Source: Agelas oroides
Taxonomy: Eukaryota; Porifera; Demospongiae; Agelasida; Agelasidae
Reading direction: 5' to 3'
Assembly (NCBI GenBank): GCA_949130485.1
Contig: OX422183.1
Span: forward strand, 26,365,316 to 26,429,315
DNA length: 64,000 nucleotides
Part shown: one piece after another, positions 20,365 through 63,364 of the stretch
Numbering within the stretch: the stretch's first letter is position 1
How the letters are laid out: the number at the start of each line of letters is the position of its first letter
Position numbers and translations under genes: made by a program
Notes under the pieces: generated by a model
What the model saw: only the letters and a program-made list of their open reading frames with translations
What the model was told of the DNA's origin: nothing
The model's database searches: none

Positions 20365-20401
20365 TCAATTTGAATCACTGTCATCAGCTTCCTCTCGGTA
20401 T
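20365..20401 (-). CDS. gene A exon 17: C-terminal exon
   Basis: After a CTACTTGCAG acceptor the phase-2 frame reads [12 protein letters not shown] then TGA. The acidic tail is plausible for a receptor. The sequence runs into a GTAAGC soon after the stop, so a spliced 3' UTR or a different ending is possible. Confidence 0.55.
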
Positions 20402-23400
20402 CTGCAAGTAGGTGCCAGGGGAATGCACACATAATCAATGATGCTACTTCACATTCAACACACTGTGCTATAATAAGTGCACACAAGTGGTTATGATTAT
20501 AACACTAACAAGAGTGGCATTGGCTAGCTAATAGTGTGTGCATGTATAGTGTTGTGGACTCTCTAGCTAGTTAGCATTGCTACACATTACCAGTTACCCA
20601 GTGAATCCACATGCTACATATATACTGGCTGGAAGAAAATCGACACCACCACATGCTACACACTACACTAGCTAGCCAGCAAGCCACAAAGCTACATGCA
20701 AACTGCATGTAGTAAATATTCACACAACCATGTCAAAACGTTAGTTAATAGATAGCAGGTCCCATTAAAGAATACAATGACAATAACATTGTACAATTGC
20801 TTGTGTCAAGTGTAAAATGTAATATGGATACGGTCAAAACTTAGTCTCATGCCGAGCATGTTAAATGTCCAATCACTTACTTCTTCATGTCTTCTGCATT
20901 CTCCTTTTCTGCATATCAAGAGCATAAAGAGCATCTGTTGATATCACTGTCATCATCTTTGAGTAATAGCCTTGGACATGCTACATTTGCTACCTGCTAT
21001 ACAGTTTCACTTTCTCTAAATTAGGGCTGACAGTCACATCACTCCTGATGTTGATCATAGATAATGCTACATGTACTGACAAAGCAAGTGAGCTTGGTGT
21101 AAACAACCAGCTTGATTTACACTACTCGGCACCGCTAGCTTTTGTACAGGCCTTTAAAAAAATTCCGTTCAAGGATCGTCAGGCATTGCAGTCTGTCACT
21201 GAGTGCCCCAATTGGTTTACTTCATAACGAAGTAGTAGCCAGGCTCTGTTTTGTGAATGAGGCTTATACATGTACATGTTTACTAATGGTATCTGTACCA
21301 ACCATGCAAGAAACAAGGTGTGCAGCTTTACACATCATCCATCAAATACTGTTGTGCACATGCTAATAGAAAGTGCATCGTAACAAACCAACTACCAGCA
21401 AACACAGTGTTATGAATGTTTCGTAAGTGTAGCTAGAGAAGACTTTACAGTTCTGAAGAACAGAAGGAATGGTGCTACCAGAACTTCAAGGTATGTTGTC
21501 TGATTATTTCCATTCTACTCACTGTATTCTTCTGCAGAAGCTGACAGTGTATATTGCCTAACCTTTATTATGTACTAGCTTCAAGTTTGTTTTGTGCATT
21601 CAGAATATACAAACCTTTTTTTTCAGCATCATAGGTCCTTCTGCGATCTCTCCACAGAAGTGCAATGCAGCAGCAAAGAATACAGCACAGCAAAATAGCC
21701 AACAGCAGAAAGATAACTATCAAAGCAATGTGCCACCCCCTCAATCCCACTCCAAGTTGAATGGCCCTCTGTTGTGCGAAGGTACTGCTACCTGTATCAC
21801 TTATAGCTCGGACACGGAAACGGTATTCCGAATTTAGGTTGGCATTCTCAATGACATGAAAGTTCTGCTTAACTACAACTGTCTGATTCTCTCTGAGTCT
21901 GTTATCCTCGTAACGCAAAATTTCCAGCACATAGCTACCTACATGTTGACCAGCGAATGTCCAATTAATGTGGAGGTTTGTGCCATCAACCAACTCCACA
22001 TTTGTAATCCTAGGAGGAGCAACAGCTGAGGTGGATATAAAAAGCAGTGCACTTAAACACAAGGTCACACTAAAAGCTATTCTCATTAATTCATCATGCA
22101 CAAGATTAAACAAAGGCTGTTAAGTAATGCAGAATCTTTGCTTGTAATTATACTAAAGAAGGCAAGGTGCTTTGGCATAGGCAGCTGAAATGTACATAAT
22201 GCTAAGCAACATAAATATAACGGGTTATTTTAAATATTTTCATGGGTGGAGAATTTGAAATGTTCTTAGAAGTAATTTCATGGTTGCAATTCAATCCGGG
22301 ATAACACAATATAAACTTTGACCCAAGAGGTTGACTATCACTTCATTATGAAGCAATAGTAATAGCCCCATCCAGCTTTCTATGGCTTCTGTTGCTCTAT
22401 GAATGAGGCTATGATAGTGATGAACTTAGCATTCATAAATGATACGGCATTCATGAAGTATAATTATCAATGTATTGTAAAAGCATATAGCCTGCTAGGC
22501 AATGAGCTTACAACAGAAATCTTTGTGCAGCTCCTTCGTCTCCCTCAAATTCACCATTGCTTCAAAGCAATGTGCTAAACAATGATTTACACATGAGGCT
22601 AATACACAACGAACCTGCGCAGTTCCTTCCATCTCCCTGAAATCCAACACTACACTGGCAGATATAGCTCCCGAGCATGTTTACACACATAGCATTACTG
22701 TGACAACTGTGCAGATCTAGTGCACACTCATCAATGTCTGTGGATACACAAATGTCAAGAGCTCACACAAACAACAGCCACATGGATAGCTACAGATGTT
22801 CTTGACTACAGATAAATAAGAAAAGGGGAAACAGTGAAATGGTTAGTGGTTTTTTAATACAAATGCACTCTGTAGGAAATGCCCATTGCACTTTTGTGTC
22901 AAGCAACCTGCAAAGGTCTGTAGTCTCATAGATAAATCAGTGGTATGTTATGACTCTAGTACTGATGAACAGGACTTGCAAAAGTGGGGCAAATCAGGTA
23001 ACTCTTGTCGTATTAATTCACATAAGGTGACACCCATTTACAATGTAACAATTTAAAATGCTGGGGTATGAGATTGACACAAAGCAAACCTGTGCAGCTC
23101 TTTCCATCTCCATGGAATCCAGCATTGCATTGGCACAAATAGCTCTCAACAGTGTTGACACATGTAGCATTAGTGTGGCAACTATACAGCTCTTGCTCAC
23201 ATTCATCAATATCTGTGGATGCAAGAAGATTAAGAACTTATCAATAATTCAGCCTAGCAACACAGAAATGGCTGGACTGCACAAGACAGTCACATGCCTA
23301 GCAACAGCTTCAGTATGAGAAATAAACTGGAGGTAATGTCATTGACTTCTTTACGAACTACCAAACAACACAGACCAATGTACCTAGTTTTGTTAGTAAA

Positions 23401-26400
23401 GTTTTAGTGAAGATGTTGAGTTCAACATGTTGAGCACTAATGACAGGATGATACATGCTAACCTGTACAGTTCCTTCCATCTCCCTGGAATCCAGCATTG
23501 CACTGGCAGGTATAGCTTCCAATAGTGTTTCTACACACTGCATTACTGTGGCAGTCATCCTGATCTTGTGCACACTCATCAATGTCTGTGGATTCAAAGA
23601 AGAGTCACATCCACTGCAAAACTTTTTCTTACTATTACAGTGACGATGTTTTGTTGAGAGAGTGAGAAATAAATCCACGGCAAAAAATCCGGGATCCAGC
23701 TAGGATTTGAACCCAAGACCACCTTCTGAATATTAGTCAAACACTCTTACCATTAAGCCACTTGGACCCCTGGCAGAGGAGCGGAAGACAAGCTACATAG
23801 GTAGAATTGCCTAGAGACCTCATTCCAACTGATTCCCAATGTTACCAGTAAATAACATCAAGCCTCTGAATACAGTACAGTATGTATACTAGTAAGATGA
23901 TATCATCATCGTGGGGCGAGCCTGAGCGAGCAATACATTGCTGATTTCATGGCACACAAACCATGCATAACAGCAGGGTTTGTCACGTCTGCTGTTCCAT
24001 GAGCGCATGTGGTAAGCAAAACTTCATGTAGCCAAGCACTTAGTTGTCACCAGATATAGATGATCATACATGTTGCCAAATTGCAGTCATTTCTCAGGTC
24101 AAGGAAGCTACTACGGCTACACACAAACTTGGACTAAACTTCACACTGAAGTCATGAGCTGAATCTCTGGAGCTTAATTATGAGTGTTGATTATGCATGG
24201 CCCTTCCTCAACTCTACTGGGCGTAATTTGTACCGTCTGTGAGTAGCCTGCCCTTGTCTGTCACGGTCCGCAGTTGCCATGCGTGCGTTAACTTGAGTCG
24301 TCTTCGCTCTGAGTTTCTTTCATGTCGACGCTGCGTTCTGGCGGTAGTCCTTCACCGAGTTAGGCGAGTATCCGACGTTCATTCAGTCTTCGTGAAACAT
24401 TTAAATGCGCTCATTTAAAATTTACGGTATATGGCCGCAAGCAAGCACGTACGTACGTAAACACTTCCGCAATGCAGTCCCGCTAGTGTGGGGCTTGCTC
24501 AGGCTCGCCCCAACTAATGGCTGTTTGTTACACAACCAACCGGTGCAGCTCCTTCCATCTCCCTGGAATCCAGCATTGCACTGGCAGGTATAACTTCCGA
24601 TAGTGTTTCTACACGCCGCATTACTGTGGCAGTCATCCTGATCTTGTGCACACTCATCAATATCTGTGTATGCAAAGAAGAGTCACTTTCACTGTATATT
24701 TCTAAACTTTTTCTTACTATTTCCAACAATAAAGCATAGTATTAACGGCAGCTTGTTACACAACCTACCGGTGCAGATCCTTCCATCTCCCTGGAATCCA
24801 GCATTGCACTGGCAGGTATAACTTCCAATAGTGTTTCTACACACTGCATTACTGTGGCAATCATCCTGATCTTGTGCACACTCATCAATGTCTGTGGATT
24901 CAAAGAAGAGTCAGTCTCACTGTGTATTTCTAAACTTTTTCTTGCAATTTCCATTTTACCAAACAAGAAAGTACAGTGATGATGTTTTGTTGAGAGAGTG
25001 AGAAATAAATCCATGTGGATCCAGGTGGGATTCAAACCCAAGACCTTCTGAATACTAGTCAGATGCTCTTACCATTAAGCCACTTGAACCCCTGGCAGAG
25101 GAGTGGAAGACAAGCTACATAGGCAGCATTGCCTAGAGGCCTCAGCTGAATTCCAACTGATTCCCAATCTCTCAGTGATTCTCACTCTTTCATCATTCAT
25201 GAGTGCCTACTGTTGTTTACAGTAAATAACATCAAGCCTCTGAATTTCACCACCAGCCTTGATCATGGCTACTAGGACTGCTAGGAGGACTATGTGTCAC
25301 AACTTGGCCTTTGAAGGTTGCAAAGTTCAGCCAGGGTTCCATTTCAGTCCAGCTCTGAGAGAGTGAGAAACAGTTGGAATTCGGCTGAGGCCTCTAGGCA
25401 ATGCTGCTTATGTGGCTTGTCTTCCGCTCCTTTGCCAGGGGTCCAAGTGGCTTAATGGTAAGAGCATCTGACTAGTATTCAGAAGGTCTTGGGTTCGAAT
25501 CCCACCTGGATCCTGAATTATTTTCCGTGGATTATTTCTTACTCTCAAAACATCATAATTCATGAGCGGCTACTGTCGTTACCAGTAAATAACATCAAGC
25601 CTCTGAGTAAAGTACAGTATGTATACTAATGGCAGCTTGTTACACAACCTACCGGTGCAGCTCCTTCCATCTCCCTGGAATCCAGCATCACACTGGCAGG
25701 TATAACTTCCAATAGTGTTTCTACACGCCGCATTACTGTGGCAATCATCCTGATCTTGTGCACACTCATCAATGTCTGTGGATTCAAAGAAGAGTCACTT
25801 TCACTGTATATTTCTAAACTTTTTCTTGCAATTTCCATTTTACCAAACAAGAAAGTACAGTGATGATGTTTTGTTGAGAGAGTGAGAAATAAATCCATGT
25901 GGATCCAGGTGGGATTCGAACCCAAGACCTTCTGAATACTAGTCAGATGCTCTTTCCATTAAGCCACTTGAATCCCTGGCAGAGGAGTGGAAGACAAGCT
26001 ACATAGGCAGCATTGCCTAGAGGCCTCAGCTGAATTCCAACTGATTCCCAATCTCTCAGTGATTCTCACTCTTTCATCATTCATGAGCGCCTACTGTTGT
26101 TTACAGTAAATAACATCAAGCCTCTGAATTTAACCACCAGCCTTGATCATGGCTACTAGGACTGCTAGGAGGACTATGTGTCACAACTTGGCCTTTGAAG
26201 GTTGCAAAGTTTAGCCAGGGTTCCAGTTCAGTCCAACTCTGAGAGAGTGAGAAACAGTTGGAATTCGGCTGAGGCCTCTAGGCAATGCTGCTTATGTGGC
26301 TTGTCTTCCGCTCCTTTGCCAGGGGTCCAAGTGGCTTAATGGTAAGAGCATCTGACTAGTATTCAGAAGGTCTTGGGTTCGAATCCCACCTGGATCCTGA

Positions 26401-29400
26401 ATTATTTTCCGTGGATTATTTCTTACTCTCAAAACATCATAATTCATGAGCGGCTACTGTCGTTACCAGTAAATAACATCAAGCCTCTGAGTAAAGTACA
26501 GTATGTATACTAATGGCAGCTTGTTACACAACCTACCGGTGCAGCTCCTTCCATCTCCCTGGAATCCAGCATCACACTGGCAGGTATAACTTCCAATAGT
26601 GTTTCTACACGCCGCATTACTGTGGCAATCATCCTGATCTTGTGCACACTCATCAATGTCTGTGGATTCAAAGAAGAGTCACTTTCACTGTATATTTCTA
26701 AACTTTTTCTTGCAATTTCCATTTTACCAAACAAGAAAGTACAGTGATGATGTTTTGTTGAGAGAGTGAGAAATAAATCCATGTGGATCCAGGTGGGATT
26801 CGAACCCAAGACCTTCTGAATACTAGTCAGATGCTCTTTCCATTAAGCCACTTGAATCCCTGGCAGAGGAGTGGAAGACAAGCTACATAGGCAGCATTGC
26901 CTAGAGGCCTCAGCTGAATTCCAACTGATTCCCAATCTCTCAGTGATTCTCACTCTTTCATCATTCATGAGTGCCTACTGTTGTTTACAGTAAATAACAT
27001 CAAGCCTCTGAATTTAACCACCAGCCTTGATCATGGCTACTAGGACTGCTAGGAGGACTATGTGTCACAACTTGGCCTTTGAAGGTTGCAAAGTTTAGCC
27101 AGGGTTCCAGTTCAGTCCAACTCTGAGAGAGTGAGAATCAGTTGGAATTCGGCTGAGGCCTCTAGGCAATGCTGCTTATGTAGCTTGTCTTCCGCTCCTT
27201 TGCCAGGGGTCCAAGTGGCTTAATGGTAAGAGCATCTGACTAGTATTCAGAAGGTCTTGGGTTCGAATCCCACCTGGATCCTGAATTACTTTCCGTGGAT
27301 TATTTCTTACTCTCAAAACATCATAATTCATGAGCGGCTACTGTCATTACCAGTAAATAACATCAAGCCTCTGAGTAAAGTACAGTATGTACTAATGGCC
27401 GTTTGTTACACAACCAACCGGTGCAGTTCCTTCCATCTCCCTGGAATCCAGCATTGCACTGGCAGGTATAACTTCCAATAGTGTTTCTACACACCGCATT
27501 ACTATGGCAATTATCCTGATCTTGTGCACACTCATCAATGTCTGTGGATTCAAAGAAGAGTCAGTCTCACTGTGTATTTCTAAACTTTTTCCAAACAATA
27601 AAGCATAGTATGTACTAATGGCAGTTTGGTGCACAACAAACTGGGCTGCTCCTTCTGGAATCCAGCATTGCACTTGTCTTTCGGACTCGTGAAAATGCAT
27701 TGGATTCCTCGCACTCATGCAATATTCTCCTGTATTGCACGAAAACTAGTGTACTATGATACATGCATAGGACTGTAGCAATCAGTACAGCCTGTATGAT
27801 TTTCACTGATACTGAAGACTTATTGGTCAGGTTTTGTACATACAGCCTTTCTTTTAATGCATGACAAGCACACACACACACTTGACTTGATAGTCTTATT
27901 TTCAGACATTCCTTACCTCCAATCCCTGGAGGAGGTAGGCTTCCTCAGCATAGTATATAGTAAAGTTAAATCAATGTTTAAGCAGATAATGCTGTTTACT
28001 CTGGCTAAAGAGCTACTATAGCACTGTTTCCATAATTATTACACAAACACCACCCACCTCCAGGAGGGAAGAATATGAATGTAATTTTAAATGGATCATG
28101 CACTTCAGTGTGGCTGAAGGGCCACTGCAGTGCTGCTTCAGTGCTTCATAATGTATAAACACCCTAAAATTAAATTGGGGTAAAAAAAAAATGCAAAAGG
28201 GGATTTGTTTTTCAGAGCACTTACCAATGACAGTGATATCAAAGATAGAAAACTGCCGCACAGGAGTTGCATCCGGAAGTTCGGCCTGATATATCCCTGC
28301 ATCACTGAATTCCACATTATTGATTTGCAAAGTGCTGCTTGATGGGACAAGTGTATACTTTGCTGTACTCCCTGTTATGGCTGTCCCATTGTGCCACCAC
28401 TGAATGGCACCAGTGTAGTTATTAACTGTAAGGTTCACATTGAACCCATAGGGAAAAGTTGTTGAGGTGCTCTGATCGGAATATGCAGGGACGGGTGAAG
28501 GTGGAGCTAAAAGGAATAAGGAGTGGAAAAATTATAGAGATACCATGTCACTGGTTGAGCAATGTGCTGAAAACAAGTGTTCAGAGTACAATATGCATGG
28601 ATATTCATGAACAAATAATCTGGGCAATCTAGCCTCATTCCCAGGCTCTCTCCTCCAGCAGGGAGAGCCTGGGAACGAGGCTATGGGCAATCTTCAATTA
28701 CACAAAACTCTTCACCATAATGTTTTGACCCCGAAGAGCCTTCTTCAGGCAATACAACTCCTTTCAGTATGATGAAGTTTTGTACATTCGAAGATTGACC
28801 AGATTATTCATTCGCAATTATCTATGCCTAATATATCCATACAATCTTCAGCCTGAGAGACAGATTGTTTGAGGTCGAGGCTACTAGAAACTCACAATGT
28901 TCAGGGTACAATCATAATATGGACATCATTTGTACCAAAATGTATGCCCTGCTTAGTGAGCTGTCCTTACTTCACGAGGTGTAAAGTTGGAACTCGTTTG
29001 TTGCAAGAGTCCTGATTAGCAAGATGTCTTTAATTCATGTGAGAGAGGTTACACTTACGTGGGGCAGTCACTGTAGTGTTTGTTCTGATGAGGTTTCCTC
29101 CCTGTACATCTGTGGCACACACAAAAATTCTTCCAGCGTGGTTGGAGCTGGGCTGGTTCAGAATAAGGTTGGTAAACCCATATATTTCCACACTGGTTGG
29201 TCGATCCAGTATATCTCCAAAGGACTGGAAGTAAAATGGGCTAAGTTGTCCACTTAATCCCCACCTAAAGAGACAAACCAGAGTGTAAATCATGAAACTG
29301 GTAAGTATGGTGAATCTGCAGATAGCATAGATACATACAGGTCTTCTTGGTAGCTAACAACATTTTGTGATAGTCAGGTAAATTACTAGACTGTGATATT

Positions 29401-32400
29401 TCAAGCTTCCCAATTCTGTACCAAGCAAGTGCATACATCCAACTCCACTTACTGTATTCCAGTAGAAACATTGCGTATAGTTTTCACACATCCAAGAACA
29501 AGCCTTTGACCTTCGATGAAGTGTACTTGATTAGGAGGACGGAGGGAAAACACAGCAGTATCAGGTGGAGGTGCTTCATCTGTAGAGGGACAGCAAAGAA
29601 ATGCCTGACCATGAGTGTACACTACATACCAATAGTGATTGTTTAGTTATGCACATTGCCATCAGAGAACTAGGCTGATGATCATGATAGCCTGTACCAA
29701 TGAAGGAGAGTGCTTGTGTAGAGAGGGAAGTTGACAAAAGTATTCAGCTAGTGAGACTCCCTCATCATTCAGAAGATTGCGATAGCCTCGTTCCAAGGCT
29801 CTTCTTTGATTCCATTCTGCAAGTGACTGAAAGCTGGGCGGGGACGAGGCTAAGGTTGTATTTGGTTACGTCTGGCACTCAATGCAACTATAAAGAACAG
29901 TTTGATAAGAAATTCTTATCATAGGCCAGAAACCTTGAAGCAAAAACACCAGGAAAGTACCCGATGACTGATGGAATGTGTCAAATGAACCACAGTCTAT
30001 ACCTAGCTGGTACAAGCTATGCATTACAAACCATTGTGCCACATTATTGCAACCAGGGGCTTGGGCTTCTACCTTTCTGTGTGGGCCTGAGAATGACACT
30101 TGTCTGTCAACTCGTGCTGGATTTGCTGGGTTGCACTGTGATAGGTGCATGATGGGCTGCGCATGCTTACAAAATTCTTAATAACTAGACTGGTGATGCA
30201 ACACTCGTTTCATTGGATCACAAAACAACCAACCTGTTCATTTATTACAGACCAGCACAACTAAGAAATCTAGCATGGGTAAGAGATTCTATATGGACAA
30301 TAGCTAAGGACACCAGACTTTGCATAAGGGCTGTATAGCAGGACATTCATATCACACCAGTGAGGAACGGTTCTTCAGGTATTCACACCACTGTTTGTAA
30401 TTGGTTTGTTACATGGTGGTTATCTATCAGTGTCAGTTTGTGTGTCTGAAAATGCCCTACTATCTGCGGAATAAAATAAGTCAGAGAATGAGACTTGTTT
30501 CAGCTGCTGAAGCAAATTCAGGTTGGCAAGTTCAATGACATCTTTATTACTTAATATGAGACTTTAGTCAGTAAGGTCCAAGCCAAATCTTTCATAAACA
30601 GCAGCCGTTGTAGTTCCTTGCACTTCTGCAATCTTCCCGAGCAAAATCTGACCAGCATCTTTGACTTCATTGTATTCATGCAGTTTATCAATGTGGACTT
30701 GAAGTTCATCTTCGTGGTAGTCTTCAGAAAGGTCGTTAATCTCTCTTTGCACTGTTTCAAGTTTGTTCTTTAGCTTTAAAACATCCCTAGCCATGTCTTC
30801 AGGATTAGTATCCGGACTTGTTTTACGGAGCTGGCCCTCTCGTTCACGTGTGGGAGTAGGCACTTTCGCTGGAGACTTAAAGGCTAGTTTAGCTCGTTGC
30901 TTTACGCCAGTCACTGGAGTGTTGAAGCGCCTTTTGGAAGCCTTCAACGGTGCGCAGAACACCGTGCAACCCTCACACAACTGTTTCGACTCGATGACTC
31001 TGCTACTAACCAGTTCTTGCACGATTTCTTCCACTGCAGAAGGAATTGCTGTACCAGATAGATCAGCAACTACTTCCCCCAACGTTCTTGGCTCCCCGAG
31101 TTTCAGGAAATATCCCCGGACCTTTTCAATGTCCTGGGTTGTCATTTTCCCTCAAACCCGGTAATGGACGGTCTCGTTCCCAAAGAATGACGTCACAGGT
31201 TGACTCAGAGTTGTACAGTCGCGCGCTAGGGGTCTACGTAGCTACTAGGGTCCGGCCACGCGAGACTACGCTAAGCCAGACTCGCGCATGGCTATGCGAG
31301 ACTAACTCAGGGTTGAAAGCTACGATTAGCACTTACTACGTGCATGATGTAAATCATGCGAGCTACCGCAGTGGCCCATTATGACTGACTAAAACAGTCC
31401 TTGTATCAGAGCTAGTTTTGGGTGGCCAGACCGTACCCTGAAGGAGGCAACTACTTCCGGTGCACTTCCGGTCAGTGCTCTAAGGAAACTGAGTACTCCA
31501 TCAATTGATGTTTGTATGAACAAAGTATTGGTCCCTGCCACATAATTGTGCTGTTGCTGGGCGTTACCATTGTTTCATAAATTGTTATGTTCAGCTAACT
31601 GCTTGTAATTAGCTACCTGTATCGTGTTTTCAGGCCTCCTCCCTTAGCTTCTTGTTCTCCATTCATGGGCGTAGCTGGTATTGAGGCACAGAAGGCAGCT
31701 GCCTCCTCGCTTTTACTACGCATGATGATGCACACGCACATTCCACACAAATAACTTGGCTTGCTGGTTATTGGCAAGTTACAGTCAGTCGATGGCTATG
31801 AACACCACCAGCAGCTGTAAAAGGTCTTTGCCTACAAAGCAGAGTTGACGCCTGAGTTACAATGTAAAAAACAGTGTGGGGCTCGCTCAGGCTCGCCCCA
31901 ATTAGCTACCTGTATCGTGTTTTCAGGTCTCCTCCCTTAGTTTATTGTTCTCCATTCATGGGCGTAGCTGGTATTGAGGCACAGAAGGCAGCTGCCTCCT
32001 CGCTTTTACTGCGCATGATGATGCACACGCACAGTCCATACAAACTGATAACTTGGCTTGCTGGTTATTGGCAAGTTACAGTCAGTTGATGGCTATGAAC
32101 ACTACCAGCAGCTGTAAAAGGTCTTTGCCTACAAAGCAGAGTTGACGCCTGAGTTATAATGTAAAAAACAGTGCGGAAAAAATGCTGAGTACCGTGATTT
32201 CTAGTGAAATTTCGCTGCATGCTTTGTGCAAGGATATTATTGCCTCCTCATTCTTGAAATCCTGGCTATGCCCCTGTCATTAGTTGTCTTGAGGAAATGA
32301 TGTCAAAATTGGTCCCTGCCACATGCTGACAATTGTCATCTTCATGCTGTTGCAAGTGTTCTTGTAAGTTGTTATGTTGAGTTGTTCTTGTAACCATCTT

Positions 32401-44516: not shown

Positions 44517-44574
44517 ATGCAGACACTTCTCGCGACGGTACTTCTATTGAGTGCGTTTACCGCCTCTACAGCAG
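44517..44574 (+). CDS. gene B exon 1: signal peptide
   Basis: The ATG at 44517 opens MQTLLATVLLLSAFTASTA followed by a GTAGGG donor in phase 1. Only the general character and the first residues resemble gene A's exon 1. Confidence 0.72.
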
Positions 44575-53500: not shown

Positions 53501-56500
53501 TTGTAGGGTCATAGCTGTCACATAATGGAAATTTGAGCCAACAGACCTATGTTTCTACTTGTTAAAGGTCACATGTTCTCGTAACTTGCCAAACGCTAGC
53601 ATACTAAGTTAATGAGTGATTTATAACTTTTTCATGCAGTGAAAGATTGAAATGAACCTCATGTCATGACATAAAATTTCATAACATATGTTTAGCCATG
53701 TCATGGCATCCTAATGTGCTAGTTTTGGTGTCTTCATAGTGGCGGGTAGACTGTAGGCATTGTTACCTATATTTGTGATTCAGTCAATTTTATAAACTGC
53801 CTCCCCAAGTGTGTAGACACACATACTATTGGTGGCCACTTGTCTGAGTTGGTAGCACAGTCTTTGCTGGCCCTCCACAGATGAAGCACCTCCACCTGGT
53901 ATTGCCGTGTTTTCCCTCCGCCCACCAAATCAAGTGCACTTCATTGAAGGACAGAGACTTGTGCTCGGATGTGCGAAAACTATACACAATGTTTCCTTTG
54001 GGATACGGTAATTGGATTGAAATGCATGCATTATTGTATTGAGACGTCAAGCTTCACAGCCTAGTAATATTACAGGTTAAGTATAACTAGCATTGATACA
54101 ATTCTGTTGTACTTTTAATGAAAATACATTGCTATGTACAATTCCTATGTTCTACCAAGTCCATGATTACCCGCCTCTGTTTCGTGTTCTTACAGGTGGG
54201 AAATCAGTGGACAATCTAACCCATTTTACATCCAGTCCTTTGGAGATTTACTGGGTCTACCAACGAGTGTGGAAATATATGGGTTTACCAACCTTATTCT
54301 GGACCAGCCCAGCTCCAACCACACTGGAAGAATTTATGTGTGCGGCACAGATGCACAGGGAGGAAACCTCATCACAACAAATACTACAGTGACTGCCCCA
54401 CGTAAATTCCTTTGCATAGCTCTTTACATTATAGTTGAATCTCTTTAACCCTTTAACAACCGATGACGCCATATGGCGTCGTCAGATTTTGGCCGTATGT
54501 TATCAGTTGGCGCAATCCGTTTTGAAGATAGGTTCTGCGCTAGCAGAAAGGGTGGGACAGGGGGAGGTGGGTGGGTGCACCGCTCTGGCTGACAGTGCAT
54601 GGCGGCGGTTGCAGCTGCCTGTAGAAAAGCCTTGGTCAATGCCGGGTGGGCCATTTGTCTGCTTTCTTGCACAAACGGGTGTAGAAAACGCTCCTTTCAC
54701 CTTGTAGGGACTCCATTTCTGGCATTTTAGGCAGCTTTTAGTCCGGAGGAGCGTTCTCTGGTTGGAGGGCCCTGACTATTGAACGCTCGCTAATGAGTGG
54801 GTGTGTCCAAGGTCATGAACCTACAGAGAACATGTCAATAAAGCTTTGAGTCAAGTTTCCAGTGCTAGCTCCAAGCAGAAGTGAAAATACAGACCATGGA
54901 AAGTATCCATAGCCTAATAAACACTTCCAGTAAATAGCCTATGGTTGTTAAAGAGTTAATCGGGATTTCTAAGCAAGGCCCATCTTCCTAAAGTAAAGAC
55001 TCTAGGGAGATGCTGCATCATCCTGGGACAAGCGAGCAGCCAGTTATTTCATAGCATGTATGTTTGCCCAGGTGCAGGTGACCACACATGCTGACAATGC
55101 ACTAAGCTATTTGCCGGAGCAGCTGCTGTGGCTATGCGGGCATAAGCTAAGCTTCACACACCGTGAACTAGCCTGGAATCTCTGCCATACATACTGGTAT
55201 GAGTGGTCTAGCTTGTCGTTGATGCATGGCCCTTATCTGAAGTAAGCTCCGCCACCGTGCATTCTGACTCATAGCCTGCATGCCTTGTCACGCGTGGGCC
55301 GTCATGCAGACCCATGACACAGACTTGCTCCCTTGAAGTGAGTTGCCATGTGTGCTGCAAATGCATGCATTCAACTTTGCTGCCAGTTGCTACAGTGTGG
55401 AGTAGCCCTTCACTCTCGCTCTTTGCAGTACATGTAGACGTTCAATCTTCATGAAATGTTTGAATGTGCTGATTTGATAATTGTCGGTCGGTCCAAACAA
55501 ACAAGCAAGCAAGCATACACACGCATGTGTGCAACACAGTCATCCTAGTGTGGGGCTTGCTCAGGCTCTCCCCAATAAACATGCATGACATGGTTTTAAT
55601 GGTTGTCTATATAAGAGGTTTCATTGCATACGGATGCTGCTTGGTTACACTGTAAATGGTTCAACCATATTTTGTTCACCTCAGTTGCATTCCTTTTGTG
55701 TGCGTGGCATGTAAAGTTCAAGGAGTGCTTACAATTTGAACCATGGTGTAGTTGAGAAGCTTCCACCTTTTGTTAAATTAGTATCTCCTTTCAGAAAGCC
55801 TATAAATCAGCATTTCTGGTGAGGTTTTTTTTTTTTTGATCTTATGCATCTGCCCCTGGAGAGTTCCTTGGTTGTGGTAGAAAAGCCAGGAATGTAACCA
55901 AATAGGTCTTCTGAAAAAAGGAAGACTAGCTAGTGTAACTAAAGAAGAAGCTCCTCAATGAACTTTCAAGAAAAAACCTATTTCGTAGCATTCCTTGAAC
56001 ACACTGATGCAACTGAGACGTGTGGTTGAAGTAACCCAAGTGTTTTTGCAGTGTATATATACCTTGAACTTGGCCTATTGTAACTACAGTGGAAAGGTCT
56101 GTGCTCTACCAGCCACAGTGTATAGATCAATGTTTTATCACTCTTAATCTTGCCAACCCTCTCAGCACCACCTTCACCTGTCCCTGGATACTCTGACCAG
56201 AGCACCTCAGCAACTTTTCCCTATGGGTACACTAAGAACCTTACAGTTAATAACTACACTGGTGCCATTCAGTGGTGGCACAATGGGACAGCCATCACAG
56301 GGAGTACAGCAAAGTATACACTTGTCCCATCAAGCAGCACTTTGCAAATCAATAATGTGGAATTCAGTGATGCAGGGATATATCAGGCCGAACTTCCGGA
56401 TGCAACTCCTGTGCGGCAGTTTTCTATCTTTGATGTCACTGTCATTGGTAAGTGTTCTGAAAAACATACGCAGTACATTAGAACAGCCACAGAATGTTTG

Positions 56501-59500
56501 CGTGATTGTGCATGAGCACAAAACCAACTAGTTCAAGCACATAGTTGCAAGTCACAAGTATGTGATATTGTCCAGTCTCTCACAGTAAGCTTGTGTCACT
56601 TTACTTAAAGGAAAGTTAGGCTAGAGTGCTGTTTATATCATTCATCTGGCCTGAAGACGAGGCTGCAGGTTATTAAAGGAACAGTGATGGCCTGTAATGT
56701 TTGGCTAAACACTTGTACAATGAAGATCTGATAGCATTTCTGTGTTAAGGAGGAGTTGAAATTGTGCATGATAGCCAGGTGGCATGTCAATGCTGTGGCT
56801 AAACAATTTGGAAGGCGAAAAGTGAAATACCTGCTGAGTATGGTTATTTTCAGACCAGTAGCTACTAGCTATGGCTTGAGTGGTTTAGATCTCAGGCTAT
56901 GTCTTCAATTACACATTTGCTGTATCTTTTGCTTGCCACTAGTTCTAGTCGTCATGGTTTTGTCAACCAGTACCTTCAAAGGTGATTCTTCCTCCATGCT
57001 TAAGCAGGTTTAAAAGCATTCGCTGGCCAATAACAGCATTCTTGAGAGGATTGATAGTGAAGCTGTTGTGGGTGTGTAGCTCTTCTTCTCTTCATCTGTT
57101 TGAAGAAGCAGCTGCGAGATCAGTTTGTAGATGTGATGGTCACTCAATCATGTGATACACTCTGATGTTTACACGATAATGGGAGCATCATAAAAACTGT
57201 GTATTTTACATGCAAGCTGTGATTTTCTGTTGTGTAACTTCACTGTTATGGACATATTGCTCCCCTTTTTGTGTAAATAAGCTTACACGTCTGCTATTCA
57301 TTCCTGACAAAACTATGTTCTTAGTATCTAGCAAGAACCAAGAACTTCTTACACGTATGATTTTCATTCCTATTTCCCACTGCTAGCTTCTACTCATAAT
57401 TGTATGTAGCACCTGTGCTTATAGCATACAATGGACCCAAAATAGCTGTGTAAATTGTTCCCAGAGGTATCACTGCAGCTATAGACACATGGAATATTTC
57501 TGTAACCAAAGCTACTAAACATTTGCAAAGTCGGTATATTTAGTGACACCAATGATCATGTGTTTAAACTGGTTTTAGCCTAAATGTAAATGTGTTGTGG
57601 CTTTGTGATGCTTCGTATTCCCATCCTACACAATGTCAACATGTGTTCCTGCTTTTACCTACAGATATAGACGAGTGTGAGCAAGATATAGACAATTGTC
57701 ACACTAATGCTAGATGTATGAACACTATTGGAAGCTATACTTGCCAGTGCAATATTGGATTTCTGGGAGATGGAACAAACTGCACAGGTTAGTTGTGTCG
57801 TGAGTCATGTGTGTTGTGTCTTGAATCTCATAAACAAAGGCCGCTGATCAGTATGAGTTTTTAAACTTCCCCCCACCACAGATATTGATGAGTGTGAGCA
57901 AGATCTGAATTGCCACACTAATGCTACATGTGTAAACACTGTTGGAAGCTATAGCTGCTTGTGCAATATTGGATTCACAGGAGATGGAAGGAGCTGCACA
58001 GGTTTGTCGTATAACAATGAAGCAGTCAAACTAGCTTGCATTACCACTAGTAGAAAGCCGTGTAGTGATAGCAAGGAAACCTGATGTTTCGTCCTGGAAA
58101 TTAGCATTGAACTTTGCTTGAGGTGTATGCCAGTGTTTCCTTGCTACATCTGATCGTCAGGAGTGGAAGGAGTTTGCCTTCACAACTTCCCTCTCTATCA
58201 GGCTGCTTATATAAACGCTATACTTGTATGTCATTGCAATGGTGGAGATGCATGGAAGGAGCTGCACAGGTTTGTATCAATCTCATACCCAATCTCATAC
58301 CTATGCAAGCAGCCTATAGTTGGGCCACTAGTATGTTACTCATCCTGTGGTTGCCATCTAGCCTCATTCCCAGGCCTTTCCTATTTTATGGTCTTTGGTT
58401 TGTATTGAAGTGGAAGAGCGACGAAAAATAGGGTAGGCCTGGGAACACTTATCACGTCAGGTGGATGTGAGGTGGACATTTCAAACAACGCACTAGACTT
58501 CATCATCGAGCGCTTCACCGCCAGGTAGAACCTCAGACGTTCACAAAATTGAGAGTAGCGTATAATTTCTAATAATTCGTTTAAAAAAAAAAGTTCAATT
58601 TTAGCTGTACGATTTGATTAGGGTACGTAAATTACTGAATATTTCGAGAAACAGGGGGTGTACGAATAAATGGAGTATTTGTACAAAGTGAATAGAAGAA
58701 AAACGTGTGCAAGTTTTCAACACTAAAGAAACCGATCAGCAGGTTCTTTTCTAGCTTCGGTTAGCTGCCATTACGTATAACAACTAACTTTGGCTTTGAT
58801 CTACGACTATGTGCATACAATGTCACGTATATCTGCCTACCCTAGGTGAGCAAGTTTACAAGGCTCCACAACTTATGCTTCACATGAAGACGTCAGTCGC
58901 ACTAAGACCTCTTAGCTGACATTGAAGAATGAACTTGTAGTATGCTGTACAGGATTCGCTGAATGTTAGTCTCGCAAGACTCCACACGACTAAACCTGAG
59001 GGAACATGTGGACTGACCTCACCCTGGCTTGTTTTGACATCGTTCCTGGTTGTACGATCATAACCAAGAGCCAAAAGAACGCTTCGCAATCTGGATGTTG
59101 GAAACACTCTCACCGTATTTGCATCAACTCAGAGTGCTTGTGCTCAAATGCGCTTCTGGTGTACAACGAATAATAATTTCATTTTAACGTGTACGAATAA
59201 ATTAGAGTACGTAAATTACTATTTTTCCTGGAAAAGGGGGGCGTACGAATTAATTGGGTGGATGTTGTTTTTATTGTGTTCTTGTGTGTGTGCATGTGCA
59301 TGTTCCTGCTGTGTTCATTATAACTAGGAGTACGCATGCGTATGATGCCTCACGCTGTGGCATGCGCCAGTGTGTCTATGTGCATTGCGCATGCGGGTGA
59401 GGCGCGCGGAGCAAGTGTGCGCTGCTGGTTTAGTGGGAGCCCAAAGAACATTACCTGGCTTGTGGAGACTCTCCAGTACATGCTTTCTACTTTTGAACTC

Positions 59501-62500
59501 TTTCTTGTTCTCTTCTTGCTCTCTTTGCTTCTGCGGTGGACTGACCTCTTTGCTTTTTTCTTTGTCAGAGTCGCTAGCCGTTGGCTGCGTTGAGCACTTG
59601 TTTCTGCACTTGACTCCGCCAAATACGTACGTTGCGAAGGCCCAGGCGCGTGTCTTCCCCGTCCTCCATCGCCAAGTAATGTTGGCCCCCCCCAACTCCT
59701 TCCTCCATCGACGTCCTCGTGTCAGTGACGCCTGATTCTGAGCGTGAGCGCGAATTGACATTCCTAAGCATGACTGCAAATTGACATTCCTAAGCGTGAC
59801 CACCATGTACGTACGTACGTACGCACATCCCGAGAATAGATCCCCGATTGAGAGCCTCACGCTAATGCGCTCGGCAATTATCTCTTTGTACCCTTCCCCC
59901 TTTGGGGTTATTCGATGATGATTGATTGATTGATTGATTGGGTGTACGAATTGTTAGAAATTCTACAGTACTCCACTTGACTGGTGAGAAACTCTCAGGT
60001 TTAGTATGCACTCTTTTGTAGTAGGGCACTGCCTCACCCTACGTCCACCTTGCGTCTGCCTCACGTGATCAGTGTTCCTAGGCCTTTCCCATTTTTCGCT
60101 GTGGTCCACTTCTGTGTTTTAACACACGGGAGGCTTGGGAACGAGGTTCCTTGCCATTAGCATTAGTCTGGTTTGTTTTGCATTATGAATCATCAGTAAA
60201 TTCTGTACCCACAGATATTGATGAGTGTGAGATACATCTACATGATTGCCACACCAATGCTATGTGCATTAACATTGTTGGAAGCTATACCTGCCAGTGC
60301 AGTGTTGGGTTCCAGGGAGATGGAAGGAGCTGCACAGGTTTGTGCTTTATTATCGTATGTTGAATATGAATCATGGATGTTGTGTGTATTGAGAAGGCAA
60401 GTTAGATAAACGTGTCTCATCCACACATGTGCAAACAGTGTAGAAAGAGCGACCTATCTTTTGCAGATACTACCAAGAGTGTGTGACTATCTAATGTTTC
60501 TAACCGGTTGGAACTTACCACCAGTACCAAATATAGTAACCTGTAGTGTGCATGCTTCCTGGGCTGTGCTAAGCAAAGCATGAGTTAGCCGAGTATCCAG
60601 GCTCTTAGAGTCTGCCCGATCAGCGCCTTGGGCCCATTTGGCCAAGTCAAGCTACAGTGAAGTTTGCCAACCCTTGAAGACATTAAATAGGGTGGCACTT
60701 CGTGCTACCCAAGTTTTTTTGAACAGACTGTGGCTTCATTGTGTGCTGTAGTTTTGCCTTGCAGGAATTGCCACACACTGCTGCCAGTTGAAGTACTCTG
60801 ACTGACATACTGGGAGTATTATGTCAAAACAAGAGCATATCTGCATAGATGGAAGCCATTGTTGCTTCAGCACGTGACCAGGTGTTCTATAATTTAATTG
60901 AAAATTCTGCCTTGACTATGGGCCTCTATTGGAGTTGCATGCTCTTCTTCTTACGTGCTCTTGATACTACTTATTTAGAGTAGACAGTACCTTACAACAG
61001 ATTTCAGAGAATTGTGATGTCATTTTCAAACAGTAACTGTGAGAGTAGTTTTATGCCTACTTTGGTTTCACATGCATGGAAGGAAGTGTAATTGGTATTA
61101 AAGGATAACTTCTAGTATACTGGACTGCTGCAAATTGCAGTTGTGTTTCAAGGATAGTAACAGTTTGAGGGCAACTTTTGACATACCAATTGTTCAAAGT
61201 AGCTCTGTTGTACCATAATTTTCAGACTGAAGCCATATCTGTGCTTACCTTACACAGATGTTGATGAGTGTGAGCAAGATCTAGGTGGTTGCCACACTAA
61301 TGCTACATGTGTAAACACTGTTGGGAGCTATAACTGCTTGTGCAGTGATGGATTTGAGGGAAATGGAAAGAGCTGCACAGGTTTGTCATGTATCAATAAG
61401 TAGCATAGCACTGCTACACGCACATATATTTCACGCTACATGTGTTTACATACATCTTGAACTCCACAGCTTCACTGAATTGTTATCACTAAATAGTGAA
61501 GCTGTGAAATGGTACAGCAGATTGCAAAAGTCTTGCAACAACCAAACTGAACAGTGGAAAACCACAATTGATTTACTACGTGTGAATCTGATTATCTTTC
61601 CCGCCTCAGCACTCCTTCCTCTTGGTTCAAACACAGTAAATCAATTGTGGTTTTCCACTGTTCAGCTTGCTTGTTGCAAGACTTTTGCAATCTGCTGTAC
61701 TAGCATGGGAACTTGATAGACTACCTCTGAACTGCCTCTATTTATTCAGTTGAAAAACCTGTGGTATATTCTTGTCAGTTCTGTTCTTTGCAGCTTGCCT
61801 CTATGACCTGTCTCATTTAAATATAGTCTGTAATTTTCGGTTCACTTGTTTATTTAGAGCAATGAGCTCTTATGTTTCAAGGTCTAGATGATGTAAATGC
61901 TGCCAAAATCCATAACTGTGAGGGACTCCATAGAAATGTATAGGTATGTTGTGTATTGATGTTTTGATGAGAGATTGAGAAATAAATCCACGAAAAAAAA
62001 TGATAGGATCCAGGTGGGATTGAAACTGACAACCTGAATACTAGTCAGACACTCCTACCACTATGTTCATTGGATTCCTGGCAGAGGAGCAGAAGACAAG
62101 CTATTTATTTCTCACTCTCTTGGCATATTATCAATATTCATGACACCTACTGTCGCCAACAGTAAATAACGTCAAGCCTCTGAGTTGTGTTGTGCGTCAA
62201 TCTCATATATGCCCATCCTGTTATATATATTAATGGCTTGTGTTCTATAGACATTGATGAGTGTTCACAAGATCAGGATGATTGCCACAGTAATGCAGTG
62301 TGTGTAAACACTGTTGGAAGTTACACCTGCCAGTGTAGTGTTGGATTCCGGGGAGATGGAAGGATCTGCACAGGTTTGTTCTGTGTCAAATCCATAGCCT
62401 AGTTGCTAAATACATACTTAGCTTCCAGGTCCATGGTTTGGTTACAAGTGTGTCAGAACTTGTTAGATAGCATACAAGAATCTTATTAAAAAACATCAAT

Positions 62501-63364
62501 ATCATTGTAATTGAGTTTCAATGCCTCCTAGCACTTGACATTGAACAGAAGCATTGCCTCTGCTGGTCAATTAGTGTACACCTTTCTTTATAGGCCTTCT
62601 GAATAATTTTTGCACCTGTTATCATTTGTAGTCAGTAAGATAGTTGGTATGACAGGTGAACATTTGTTGAGCTGCTGTACACATTCACTTTTTGTGTATG
62701 ATTACAAACACAGACTCTTGGCGCTTTTGTATACAGTTGTGTTGGATAGTTTTTTTTGCTTACCTCAATTTCTTCTCTTTTATCCACCACAGTGTTTGCT
62801 TCTCCTAGGATTACAAATGTGGGGTTAGTTGATGGTACAAACCTCCACGTTAATTGGACATTTGCTGGTCAACATGTAGGCAGTTATGTGCTGGAAATAT
62901 TGCGTTACGAGGATAACACACTCAGAGAGAATCAGACAGTTGTAGTTAAGCAGAACTTTTATGTAATTGAGAATGCCAACCTAAATTCGGAATACCGTTT
63001 CCGTGTCCGAGCTATAAGTGATACAGGTAACAGTACCTTCACACAACAAAGAGCCATTCAACTAGGAGTGGGATTGAGGGGGTGGCACATTGCTCTGATA
63101 GCTATCTTTCTGCTGTTGGCTGTTTTGCTGTGCTGTATTCTTTGCTGCTGCATTGCAATTCTATGGAAAGAACGTAGAAGGACCTATTATGCAGAAAAAC
63201 AAGGTTTGTGTATAACTATGTCTGTGTACAATGTATGTAAGCAGTCAAATCAGCACTTTGTAGGCCTGCAAGTCCTACCAAACTGCAATGTTATTGTTAG
63301 TATTACTCTGTGCTCCTTTGTTCCACATATATACAGAAAAGGCTTATGCTGAAGAGTTTACAGA
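44517..63364 (+). CDS. gene B: Ig4-EGF5-FN3 single-pass receptor (3' end not resolved)
   Basis: Exons: 44517-44574, 46548-46811, 53035-53373, 53881-54007, 54196-54401, 56166-56447, 57665-57787, 57882-58001, 60215-60337, 61258-61380, 62251-62373, 62793-63203, 63337-63364. These give about 775 residues without the final exon: signal peptide 1-19, four Ig-like domains (20-425), five calcium-binding EGFs (426-629), FN3 and transmembrane exon (630-766), then the start of a cytoplasmic tail. It is the inverted paralogue of gene A with the same exon lengths and phases. It differs by fewer EGFs, no nested Swi5 gene, and an Ig1-Ig2 intron of 6.2 kb (2.5 kb in A). The last exon lies beyond the window or is not recognisable; a frame after TCTACAG at 63578 is a weak alternative. 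Confidence 0.8.
44848..45143. mobile_element. miniature inverted-repeat element with TTGATC repeats
   Basis: Left end CAAGGGGTAGTCACTTATAT and right end ATATAAATGATTACCCCTTG, extending inward through TAGAAGCGTTTGC on both sides (about 50-bp arms). The interior is rich in TTGATC/GATCAA. It lies in gene B's intron 1. Confidence 0.7.
45269..45322. repeat. hairpin TACCCATATCTCCCTGTCA
   Basis: TACCCATATCTCCCTGTCA pairs with TGACAGGGAGATGCAGGGGTA across a 10-nt loop. No gene nearby needs it; it is probably a repeat relic. Confidence 0.55.
45478..45528. repeat. hairpin GTCTGGACTGCAGACCCTTC
   Basis: A near-perfect inverted repeat with about 20-bp arms (GTCTGGACTGCAGACCCTTC / GAAGGGTCTGCGGTCCAGAC) and a short loop. 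Confidence 0.65.
45551..45794. mobile_element. foldback element, ~105-bp arms
   Basis: TGTTAACAAATGAGTATTCG at the left is mirrored by CGAATACTCATTTGTTAACA at the right, and the arms continue through GCAACGTTTCGGTCCCGAGG to the centre. It would snap back into an almost full-length hairpin. It lies in gene B's intron 1. Confidence 0.82.
45957..46034 (+). pseudogene. truncated extra copy of the Ig1 exon
   Basis: TCATTGACTTTACTGAGCAC through CACCCTGCAATGTGC matches the first ~76 nt of the Ig1 exon, preceded by a CTACAG. It then breaks into intron-type sequence (CTATCAGTTTACTGTAGGC), reaching a stop after ten codons. It matches gene A's Asn version (LNES), not gene B's own Thr version (LTES). 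Confidence 0.78.
46135..46220. repeat. VNTR in gene B intron 1, ~3 units
   Basis: GAATACCAAGAAGGAACCA units, the reverse-strand counterpart of gene A's VNTR at 36918-37178 but with only about three copies. Confidence 0.8.
46548..46811 (+). CDS. gene B exon 2: Ig1
   Basis: 264 nt, phase 1-1, with Cys in VTLQCSVSD and GNYRCVARS. It has the same tandem TTCAGCAG acceptor as gene A. Substitutions relative to A cluster around the first cysteine (SVSDGEV in B, AVSNGAV in A). Confidence 0.88.
49745..49822. repeat. 16-bp minisatellite CAGTCCAGTAGTCCAGTC
   Basis: About five tandem copies of AGTCCAGTCCAGTAGTCC-type units, with an A/G variant (CAATAG) in the last ones. Confidence 0.85.
49960..50475. 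mobile_element. foldback inverted-repeat element
   Basis: ACAGTACACAGTCAAGTGAC and GGAGTATGAGTACAAACTTC on the left return in reverse as GAAGTTTGTACTCATACTCC and GTCACTCAACTGTGTACTGT on the right, with weaker outer arms. A small inner hairpin (ATACCGATGT / ACATCGGTAT) lies near 50297-50325. Confidence 0.75.
53035..53373 (+). CDS. gene B exon 3: Ig2
   Basis: 339 nt, phase 1-1, Cys in VFQCEFNQL and EVRCVASD. One notable change from gene A is an extra cysteine next to the core Trp (WDVCTGDN in B, WDVRTSSN in A). Confidence 0.88.
53881..54007 (+). CDS. gene B exon 4: Ig3, first half
   Basis: 127 nt, phase 1 to 2, after a CCTCCACAG acceptor. It reads [19 protein letters not shown], then LVLGCAK with the first Ig cysteine. 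The intron before it is only 507 bp; in gene A the same intron is 3.9 kb and contains Swi5. Confidence 0.83.
54196..54401 (+). CDS. gene B exon 5: Ig3, second half
   Basis: 206 nt, phase 2 to 1. It begins by completing an Arg codon, then WEISGQSNP and later RIYVCGTDAQ with the second cysteine. Confidence 0.85.
54449..54955. mobile_element. piggyBac-like miniature element with TTAA duplication
   Basis: TTAA (54445-54448), then CCCTTTAACAACCGATG at the left; GGTTGTTAAAGAG, then TTAA (54956-54959) at the right. TTAA targets and CCC-type termini are the piggyBac hallmark. It is 507 bp, contains a GACGCCATATGGCGTC palindrome and encodes no transposase. It lies in the Ig3-Ig4 intron of gene B only. 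Confidence 0.75.
55000..55577. mobile_element. element of the GGGGCTTGCTCAGGCTC family, right end
   Basis: The right end GTGTGGGGCTTGCTCAGGCT and interior phrases such as CATGAAATGTTTGAATGTGC resemble the element at 23912-24513. The left end is not clearly defined, so the start given is approximate. Confidence 0.45.
56166..56447 (+). CDS. gene B exon 6: Ig4-like without disulphide
   Basis: 282 nt, phase 1-1. It reads PPPSPVPGYSDQSTS, then [10 protein letters not shown] and [10 protein letters not shown]. Like its gene A counterpart it contains no cysteine at all. Confidence 0.83.
56448..57664 (+). other. gene B intron 6, nothing recognised
   Basis: Ordinary intron of 1.2 kb. No repeat or exon-like structure that I can support. 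Confidence 0.5.
57665..57787 (+). CDS. gene B exon 7: cbEGF 1
   Basis: 123 nt, phase 1-1, DIDECEQDIDNCHTNARC signature and six cysteines. Confidence 0.87.
57882..58001 (+). CDS. gene B exon 8: cbEGF 2
   Basis: 120 nt, one codon shorter than the others between the first two cysteines (CEQDLNCHTN). Only 94 bp from the previous exon. Confidence 0.86.
58214..58269 (+). pseudogene. decayed EGF exon relic, 3' half
   Basis: CGCTATACTTGTATGTCATT then GCAATGGTGGAGATGCATGG and AGCTGCACAG ends at a GTTTG donor, like the true EGF exons. It lacks the 5' half and carries an internal deletion of about 10 nt. Confidence 0.6.
59030..59085 (-). pseudogene. EF-hand-like exon fragment inside the composite element
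   Basis: Minus strand reads PTSRLRSVLLALGYDRTTRN then DVKTSQ before a GTGAGG donor. The pattern 'LRxVLxALGYxxTxxDV' resembles the second half of an EF-hand unit of centrin/EFCAB type. Resemblance is by eye and the 5' boundary is unknown. Confidence 0.3.
59478..59600 (-). pseudogene. Lys/Glu-rich exon fragment inside the composite element
   Basis: Minus strand reads ASDSDKEKSKEVSPPQKQRE and on to KSRKHVLESLHKP, then a GTAATG donor. A second frame is also open over this stretch. It could be the exon preceding the EF-hand-like fragment in a captured gene piece. Confidence 0.25.
60215..60337 (+). CDS. gene B exon 9: cbEGF 3
   Basis: 123 nt, phase 1-1, reads DIDECEIHLHDCHTNAMC. It is separated from cbEGF 2 by the composite element. 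Confidence 0.87.
60338..61257 (+). other. gene B intron 9, nothing recognised
   Basis: Ordinary 0.9-kb intron with no repeat that I can name. Confidence 0.5.
61258..61380 (+). CDS. gene B exon 10: cbEGF 4
   Basis: 123 nt, phase 1-1, reads DVDECEQDLGGCHTNATC. Ile-to-Val at the second position keeps the calcium-binding signature. Confidence 0.86.
61381..62250 (+). other. gene B intron 10 with an inverted repeat and a tRNA-derived repeat
   Basis: A hairpin at about 61496-61700 pairs GTACAGCAGATTGCAAAAGT and AACAGTGGAAAACCACAATT with their reverse complements. It is followed by the tRNA-derived repeat at 61960-62185. Confidence 0.55.
61960..62185 (-). repeat. tRNA-derived repeat, degenerate single arm
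   Basis: Starts TTTTGATGAGAGATTGAGAA, holds a decayed tRNA-like block (GGTGGGATTGAAACTGACAA, CTAGTCAGACACTCCTACCA) and ends AACGTCAAGCCTCTGAG. Same family as the paired repeats in gene A's EGF introns. Confidence 0.6.
62251..62373 (+). CDS. gene B exon 11: cbEGF 5
   Basis: 123 nt, phase 1-1, reads [18 protein letters not shown]. This is the only gene B module resembling the CAQDQD series that was amplified in gene A. Confidence 0.87.
62793..63203 (+). CDS. gene B exon 12: FN3 + transmembrane
   Basis: 411 nt, phase 1-1. FN3 from SPRITNVGLV, core Trp in VNWTF, then a helix starting GWHIALIAIFLLLAVLL with the CCxLCCC-type cluster and KERRR. TYYAEKQ follows at the membrane edge. Confidence 0.9.
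63337..63364 (+). CDS. gene B exon 13: 28-nt cytoplasmic mini-exon
   Basis: ATATACAG acceptor, 28 nt, GTGAGT donor, phase 1 to 2, encoding EKAYAEEFT. Same size and phase as gene A's 20881-20908. Confidence 0.65.

Follow-up and report, generated by a model that had tools for sequence, protein, structure and literature searches.

Two head-to-head genes for probable Ig/EGF/FN3 receptors in the sponge Agelas oroides diverge as a mosaic

The human genes SIGLEC11 and SIGLEC16 lie head-to-head about 9 kb apart, their ectodomain exons are homogenised by gene conversion and their products signal in opposite ways, according to the excerpts of the account considered here (PMC5701461). In Botryllus, the accounts, likewise taken in excerpt, describe fuhc-sec and fuhc-tm as adjoining but separate genes, the one encoding two EGF domains and the other three Ig domains (PMC3691228, PMC12065747). 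Here we describe a locus of the sponge Agelas oroides in which two genes, A (- strand) and B (+ strand), form a divergent mirror-image pair of probable cell-surface receptor genes with their first exons facing. The window, i.e. the whole stretch of 64,000 nucleotides that we analysed, is C1:26365316-26429315, where C1 is a contig of 32.7 Mb in a chromosome-scale assembly of 259 Mb and 141 contigs; positions below are those of the window. Like the human genes, as far as the excerpts describe them, these would be surface receptors of the immunoglobulin superfamily (IgSF), placed head-to-head (first coding exons 5.85 kb apart) and with apparently homogenised ectodomain exons. The divergence between A and B, newly noted here, is a mosaic: coding parts are patchily near-identical and most of the DNA between them has drifted apart.

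The gene pair and its mosaic divergence

The original prediction placed a head-to-head inverted duplication around ~41.5 kb, made of paralogous Ig/EGF/FN3 surface receptors in mirror image with identical exon sizes and phases, and on all these points the locus agrees with it. When the window is compared with itself (BLASTN), inverted matches appear in mirror order with E from 0 to 1e-118: 36992-36259 with 46138-46866 (91%), 33850-33403 with 52980-53425 (95%), 29599-29055 with 53861-54405 (79%), 28514-28206 with 56158-56466 (95%) and 22040-21605 with 62778-63213 (92%), plus the EGF exons. The candidate signal-peptide exons are separated by 5.85 kb and their midpoint is at ~41.59 kb. All six paired exons have equal lengths in the two genes (267, 339, 127, 206, 282 and 411 bp), and each is preceded by AG and followed by GT. 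The 411-bp exon ends at GTTTGT, a donor that also follows EGF exons of B. Phase 1 introns flank the Ig and EGF modules, and Ig3 is split in both genes by an additional phase-2 intron of 188 bp. Of the 13 EGF exons, 12 measure 123 bp and one 120 bp. Each gene encodes a predicted signal peptide, four Ig-like domains, cbEGF modules (eight in A, five in B), one FN3 domain and one predicted transmembrane helix. The mirror pair stands, within supported coding limits of 38664-21615 for A and 44517-63203 for B; nothing was found to support the outer limits of 20365 and 63364 that had been proposed. The parts are as follows.

38598..38664, - strand: gene A first coding exon, signal peptide (22 aa), predicted only, as a hydrophobic ATG exon with a phase-1 donor, the best of 2 candidates in 36.7-44 kb
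36581..37279, - strand: 3' portion of intron 1 in gene A, where an alignment with gene B can still be made (identity of 87.6% over 418 columns within 36581-36992)
36314..36580, - strand: gene A Ig1 exon, 267 bp (Pfam Ig_3 E 1.5e-10; A/B alignment)
33455..33793, - strand: gene A Ig2 exon, 339 bp (below the Pfam cut-off; A/B alignment)
29453..29579, - strand: Ig3a exon of gene A, 127 bp, the one that has diverged (A/B alignment, four-fold sites)
29059..29264, - strand: gene A Ig3b exon, 206 bp (A/B alignment)
28225..28506, - strand: gene A Ig4 exon, 282 bp (Pfam Ig_3 E 7.1e-7; A/B alignment)
22615..27541, - strand: gene A eight cbEGF exons of 123 bp each, starting at 27541, 26659, 25775, 24891, 24663, 23585, 23212 and 22737 (EGF_CA E 5e-13 for one module)
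21615..22025, - strand: gene A FN3 and transmembrane (FN3-TM) exon, 411 bp (fn3 E 4.6e-6; hydropathy peak 3.54)
44517..44574, + strand: gene B first coding exon, signal peptide (MQTLLATVLLLSAFTASTA, 19 aa), predicted only, the single candidate in 39-46.6 kb
45953..46040, + strand: partial additional Ig1 exon copy upstream of gene B Ig1 (91% over 81 bp with the A Ig1 region; 26 aa at 85%)
46545..46811, + strand: gene B Ig1 exon (A/B alignment)
53035..53373, + strand: gene B Ig2 exon (A/B alignment)
53881..54007, + strand: gene B Ig3a exon (A/B alignment)
54196..54401, + strand: gene B Ig3b exon (A/B alignment)
56166..56447, + strand: gene B Ig4 exon (A/B alignment)
57665..62373, + strand: the five cbEGF exons of gene B, which start at 57665, 57882 (120 bp), 60215, 61258 and 62251 (exon comparison)
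62793..63203, + strand: gene B FN3-TM exon (A/B alignment; hydropathy peak 3.39)

The exons differ widely in how far the two copies have moved apart. At four-fold sites A and B differ at 1/41 positions in Ig1, 3/44 in Ig2, 1/27 in Ig3b and 2/45 in Ig4 (7/157 pooled), at 7/50 in FN3-TM and at 10/21 in Ig3a. Synonymous distances follow, with 0.05 for Ig1, 0.13 for Ig2, 0.61 for Ig3a, 0.08 for both Ig3b and Ig4 and 0.17 for the FN exon; the short signal-peptide alignment gives 1.2. Synonymous differences are heterogeneous across the six exons (chi-square 30.8, 5 df, P 1e-5), a test from which the signal peptides were excluded, being 22 and 19 aa long and barely alignable. Four-fold differences are also clumped (dispersion P 0.0006, longest run P 0.027), and runs of identity within exons exceed random placement in three of the six exons at P<0.05 (Ig4, P 0.001).

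Outside the exons similarity is soon lost. Within 60-100 bp of the exons the identity of the intron flanks drops to ~0.5, the level found 300-400 bp out, with two exceptions, namely the 188-bp Ig3 intron and the 3' portion of intron 1. The shared part of intron 1 has 35 mismatches in 418 columns and is nearly absent elsewhere in the genome, where it gives three short weak matches only. The Ig3 intron is 188 bp in both genes, with 73% identity over aligned bases and an alignment score of 18, where 200 shuffles reached -7.5 at most, and is therefore homologous yet strongly diverged. The 50 bases that follow Ig2 are identical in A and B. Most other intron sequence is unalignable: ~1 kb of intron aligns between genes of 17-19 kb, and introns at the same position may differ in length (2520 vs 6223 bp, 3875 vs 507 bp). 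Two side observations concern these introns. Gene A intron 1 holds a tandem repeat (36912-37171, spacing ~80-100 bp, 84%) with a counterpart in gene B at 46043-46218. A single-frame gene with a Swi5 domain (Pfam E 1.6e-20), for which no other match was found genome-wide, is nested on the same strand in the Ig2-Ig3a intron of gene A (30564-31151, - strand); the counterpart intron of gene B, being 507 bp long, has no room for it.

Domain assignments vary in their support. Pfam cut-offs are passed by two of the four Ig-like domains, Ig1 (E 1.5e-10) and Ig4 (E 7.1e-7; 30.1 bits for a cut-off of 30), and by EGF_CA (5e-13) and fn3 (4.6e-6). Ig2, with E 0.0022, stays below its cut-off, and Ig3 lacks any Pfam match at E<=1; both are classed as putative Ig domains by their cysteine/tryptophan pattern only. 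An AlphaFold model of Ig2, built from two sequences, was uninformative (mean pLDDT, the predicted local distance difference test, of 47). The putative transmembrane segments of A and B, recognised by their hydrophobicity, are nearly identical and contain no charged residue; their Kyte-Doolittle peaks over 19 residues are 3.54 and 3.39.

Copy number, selection and flanking DNA

A whole-genome search for further Ig4-EGFn-FN3 paralogues, a check suggested by the original prediction, yielded no third full copy with either FN3-TM or Ig1-4 as query, genome match counts in these searches being lower bounds. The FN3-TM and Ig4 exons have two genome matches each. At E<=10 the Ig1-4 query has 27 matches, ten of which are exons of A and B and one the partial Ig1 copy in B (45963-46040); the other 16 have E of 0.008 or worse and 25-44% identity. 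Because the search of the 259-Mb genome revealed no further close copy, A and B make an isolated pair rather than a large recognition cluster of many paralogues. Among 5.8 billion proteins, Ig1-4 found one weak partial match (E 0.016), which is weak evidence of absence since the length filter would miss one-exon predictions. With the full-length receptor as query, the matches listed are EGF-rich proteins.

Divergence between A and B is mostly purifying overall. Summed over the six exons, 47/373 synonymous and 57/1241 nonsynonymous sites differ; the signal peptide is omitted from these counts, as are the EGF exons, because their one-to-one pairing is unclear. The nonsynonymous distance (dN) is below the synonymous one (dS) in Ig1, Ig2, Ig3a, Ig4 and FN, and dN/dS is 0.11 in Ig3a. 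Ig3b, a part of the same domain as Ig3a, is the sole exon with dN above dS (0.107 and 0.076). Its 16 nonsynonymous to 3 synonymous differences, compared with 36:30 pooled over Ig1, Ig2, Ig4 and FN (Ig3a omitted), hint at a departure from the purifying pattern (Fisher P 0.03, uncorrected, from rounded counts and for an exon chosen after the fact; the test compares ratios between exons and not dN with dS within Ig3b). The dN/dS comparison that had been proposed for A and B hence finds purifying divergence in sum and one departing exon. The idea of a small, fast-changing recognition locus is mostly unsupported, given two copies only and mostly purifying divergence; the contrary sign is a recent change of EGF number in A.

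This change is seen in the stalk, where A has eight cbEGF exons vs five in B. One further feature accounts for the recent part of it.

24740..27591: unit of 884 bp with an EGF exon, recently amplified in tandem within gene A, with 3 whole units and a partial fourth, the whole units ~98% identical

EGF exons A2 and A3 are 100% identical. Given the ~98% identity of the units, the number of EGF exons in gene A has been changing recently. A1-A6 are closest to B5 (87-92%, against 75-80% for other B modules), and the stalk was therefore reshaped as one module was amplified. Within the 884-bp unit, the intron part is a dispersed inverted-repeat element with many copies in the genome; the unit has at least 126 matches genome-wide (40 of 793 candidates scored).

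Downstream of the transmembrane exon, a comparison of 9 kb of A with ~10 kb of B found no similarity apart from simple repeats. A low-stringency translated search for a shared cytoplasmic tail (3.2 kb vs 1.9 kb) reached 44 at best, the top score of the null being 39, which is not convincing, and the downstream searches identified no tail exon 3' of either transmembrane exon. A TMTC gene (PF08409, E 3.9e-19) reads towards B, and its last TMTC-like open frame, judged by eye, ends ~1.9 kb past the last exon of B, which therefore leaves little room for a long B tail. Also 3' of B lies a long single frame for an EF-hand-like protein with 725 matches, the best at 93%. Five among the best 120 of the 725 have species names, and all five are from sponges, in keeping with a sponge host: three from Dysidea avara (61-62%), one from Halisarca dujardinii (ilborin B, 59%) and one from Amphimedon queenslandica (60%).

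Between the two genes we found a dispersed repeat and a palindrome.

42234..44341: 2.1-kb dispersed repeat between the genes, 98% identical to C3:9149987-9152103 on another contig, with many more partial copies

The repeat stops ~175 bp short of the first coding exon of gene B, whose control region it may have reset recently. The palindrome of 46 bases (41196-41241, core TGACGTCA) is a small dispersed palindromic element: its 18-base arm has 226+230 genome occurrences with at most 2 mismatches, compared with 1+2 for a control. We take it to resemble a cyclic AMP response element (CRE). It lies near the mirror axis, and a relic of the inversion was considered and rejected, the arm occurring 456 times vs 3 for the control. 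In the outer part of the window, at ~6.1-18.5 kb, degenerate tandem arrays with a unit of the 41-bp type (CTCTACTACATTCTACCATGG...) read as long false open reading frames (ORFs; LYYTLPWLYL...), and similar stretches occur elsewhere in the genome. GC skew is strong at 12-16 kb, within these arrays.

Gene conversion and its alternatives

We favour, with a probability of about 0.6, an old inverted duplication whose exons would have been patchily homogenised by DNA-level interlocus gene conversion. The duplication would have produced two divergently transcribed single-pass sponge receptors, in each of which a cbEGF stalk bears the four Ig-like domains and is followed by FN3, close to the membrane, and by a transmembrane helix. 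Later, conversion would have homogenised exon patches, the neighbouring intron over at most ~50 bp and, in intron 1, a stretch of several hundred bp, the exons serving as islands of surviving homology where it can begin and end. The Ig3a exon would have escaped along with its 188-bp intron, and both would show the older divergence. Copying through cDNA was set aside, since A/B identity extends beyond exon ends, as in the 50 bases past Ig2, and such copying is not needed. Judging from the domain types, conversion might preserve the binding of one common ligand by the two receptors, in adhesion or cell recognition. The copies may yet be deployed differently, as they would diverge in signal peptide, in the length of the stalk, in the control DNA beside them and perhaps in the tail.

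Several points weigh against this scenario. The comparison covers A and B only, and the old age of the duplication is presumed. The signal-peptide exons are predictions, the gene models come from DNA alone, tail exons were not identified downstream, and a binding function is suggested by domain type only. Three of the six exons have no excess of identity runs, and the run-length test uses all sites, so that uneven amino-acid constraint could contribute. Ig3a was picked from the data post hoc; the heterogeneity test over six exons is the fair one. Finally, the 35/418 mismatches of intron 1, beside the 1/41 four-fold differences of the adjoining Ig1, imply that conversion tracts would be small or mixed in age.

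A fairly young inverted duplication without conversion, with a silent divergence of ~5-15%, would account for the low silent divergence shared by five of the six exons and for the 87.6% identity in intron 1. Indels would then have made the introns unalignable, as the dispersed repeats in introns and intergenic DNA suggest, and the anomaly of Ig3a might reflect e.g. a divergent allele or a lost third copy. But insertions leave the old intron in place, yet only ~1 kb of intron aligns; introns in the same place differ in length, and strong divergence is seen in Ig3a as well as in its intron, which is equally long in the two genes. We consider this the less probable account, though one to be taken seriously. 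Selection on amino acids and codon use might instead have preserved the exons of an old pair while introns drifted, and amino-acid change is indeed mostly constrained in five exons. Yet four-fold sites changed freely in Ig3a and hardly at all in Ig1, Ig2, Ig3b and Ig4, and identity runs into the intron beside Ig2, which makes selection alone very improbable. Least credible of all is an assembly artefact representing one gene twice in inverted orientation: the copies differ throughout, in introns, EGF number and signal peptide, and both lie within one contig.

Paired allorecognition or immune receptors, with a shared ectodomain kept in step by conversion and opposed signalling tails, are another reading. 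The head-to-head placement and apparently converted ectodomain recall SIGLEC11/SIGLEC16, as far as the excerpts describe them (PMC5701461), no convincing A/B similarity was found 3' of the transmembrane exons, and Ig3b has its excess of nonsynonymous change. But no tail exon was identified, hence no immunoreceptor tyrosine-based inhibitory or activation motif (ITIM or ITAM), the near-identical transmembrane segments are uncharged and the family numbers two only. We therefore regard this as doubtful. Should it hold, ectodomains matched by conversion, with signalling ends and control regions diverging, would make a sponge paired-receptor system, independent of the mammalian one, in a lineage among the earliest-branching of animals, a conjecture by analogy to which we give equally little credence.

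Comparison with known recognition systems

Sponge cell recognition involves aggregation factors, secreted proteins with Calx-beta and Wreath domains. The A/B receptors differ from them in that Calx-beta has no match among the six receptor pieces tested with Pfam. To our knowledge sponge allorecognition still has no agreed receptor, and the A/B pair is a two-gene candidate for cell adhesion, allorecognition or paired signalling. For a diversified recognition family, a better candidate than this pair is perhaps found on contig C11, where the genes repeated at ~0.49-0.53 Mb and at 2.36-2.40 Mb appear to carry both SRCR and Ig domains. They are likely an SRCR-Ig receptor cluster; of the two ORFs tested one has SRCR (E 2e-15) and the other Ig_2 (E 9.5e-7), the others being read by eye.

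In the sponge literature on allorecognition, such domains, gene conversion and paired receptors, titles and opening lines of abstracts among the papers listed describe no such pair, in a coverage that lacks most subscription journals. The main text of an Amphimedon grafting transcriptome, as available in part, contains none of the words immunoglobulin, EGF, Ig-like or receptor (PMC5450542). The portions considered of a Halichondria immune study name Ig and FN3 domains among putative cytokine receptors, with no mention there of such a pair (PMC8242945).

Among IgSF adhesion receptors, Contactin and Roundabout are among the best sequence matches of solved structure (Contactin-2, E 4.5e-9, query residues 29-77, in Ig1), but the matches cover parts of one Ig domain or two neighbours and not the order Ig4-EGFn-FN3. 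Botryllus fuhc-sec/fuhc-tm and Hydractinia Alr are, as partially consulted accounts have it, invertebrate surface or secreted recognition proteins likewise built of Ig and/or EGF modules. They differ in being highly polymorphic, and for fuhc the likeness, drawn from description only, is one of common module types only.

The Siglecs, in the excerpts cited above, bind sialic acid by a V-set domain and signal through an ITIM vs an ITAM adaptor, whereas the sponge pair has a cbEGF stalk and FN3, and V-set had no match above its cut-off in the receptor pieces tested (Pfam). As in paired receptors, A and B are linked genes with near-identical ectodomains in their Ig and FN3 exons, their EGF stalks differing in number. 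If conversion is confirmed in relatives, the locus would be a compact example, from a sponge, of inverted receptor genes whose ectodomains are homogenised in nature. Claiming for it a likeness in arrangement and apparent conversion, and not membership among paired receptors, we regard SIGLEC11/SIGLEC16 as probably the closest known case by arrangement.

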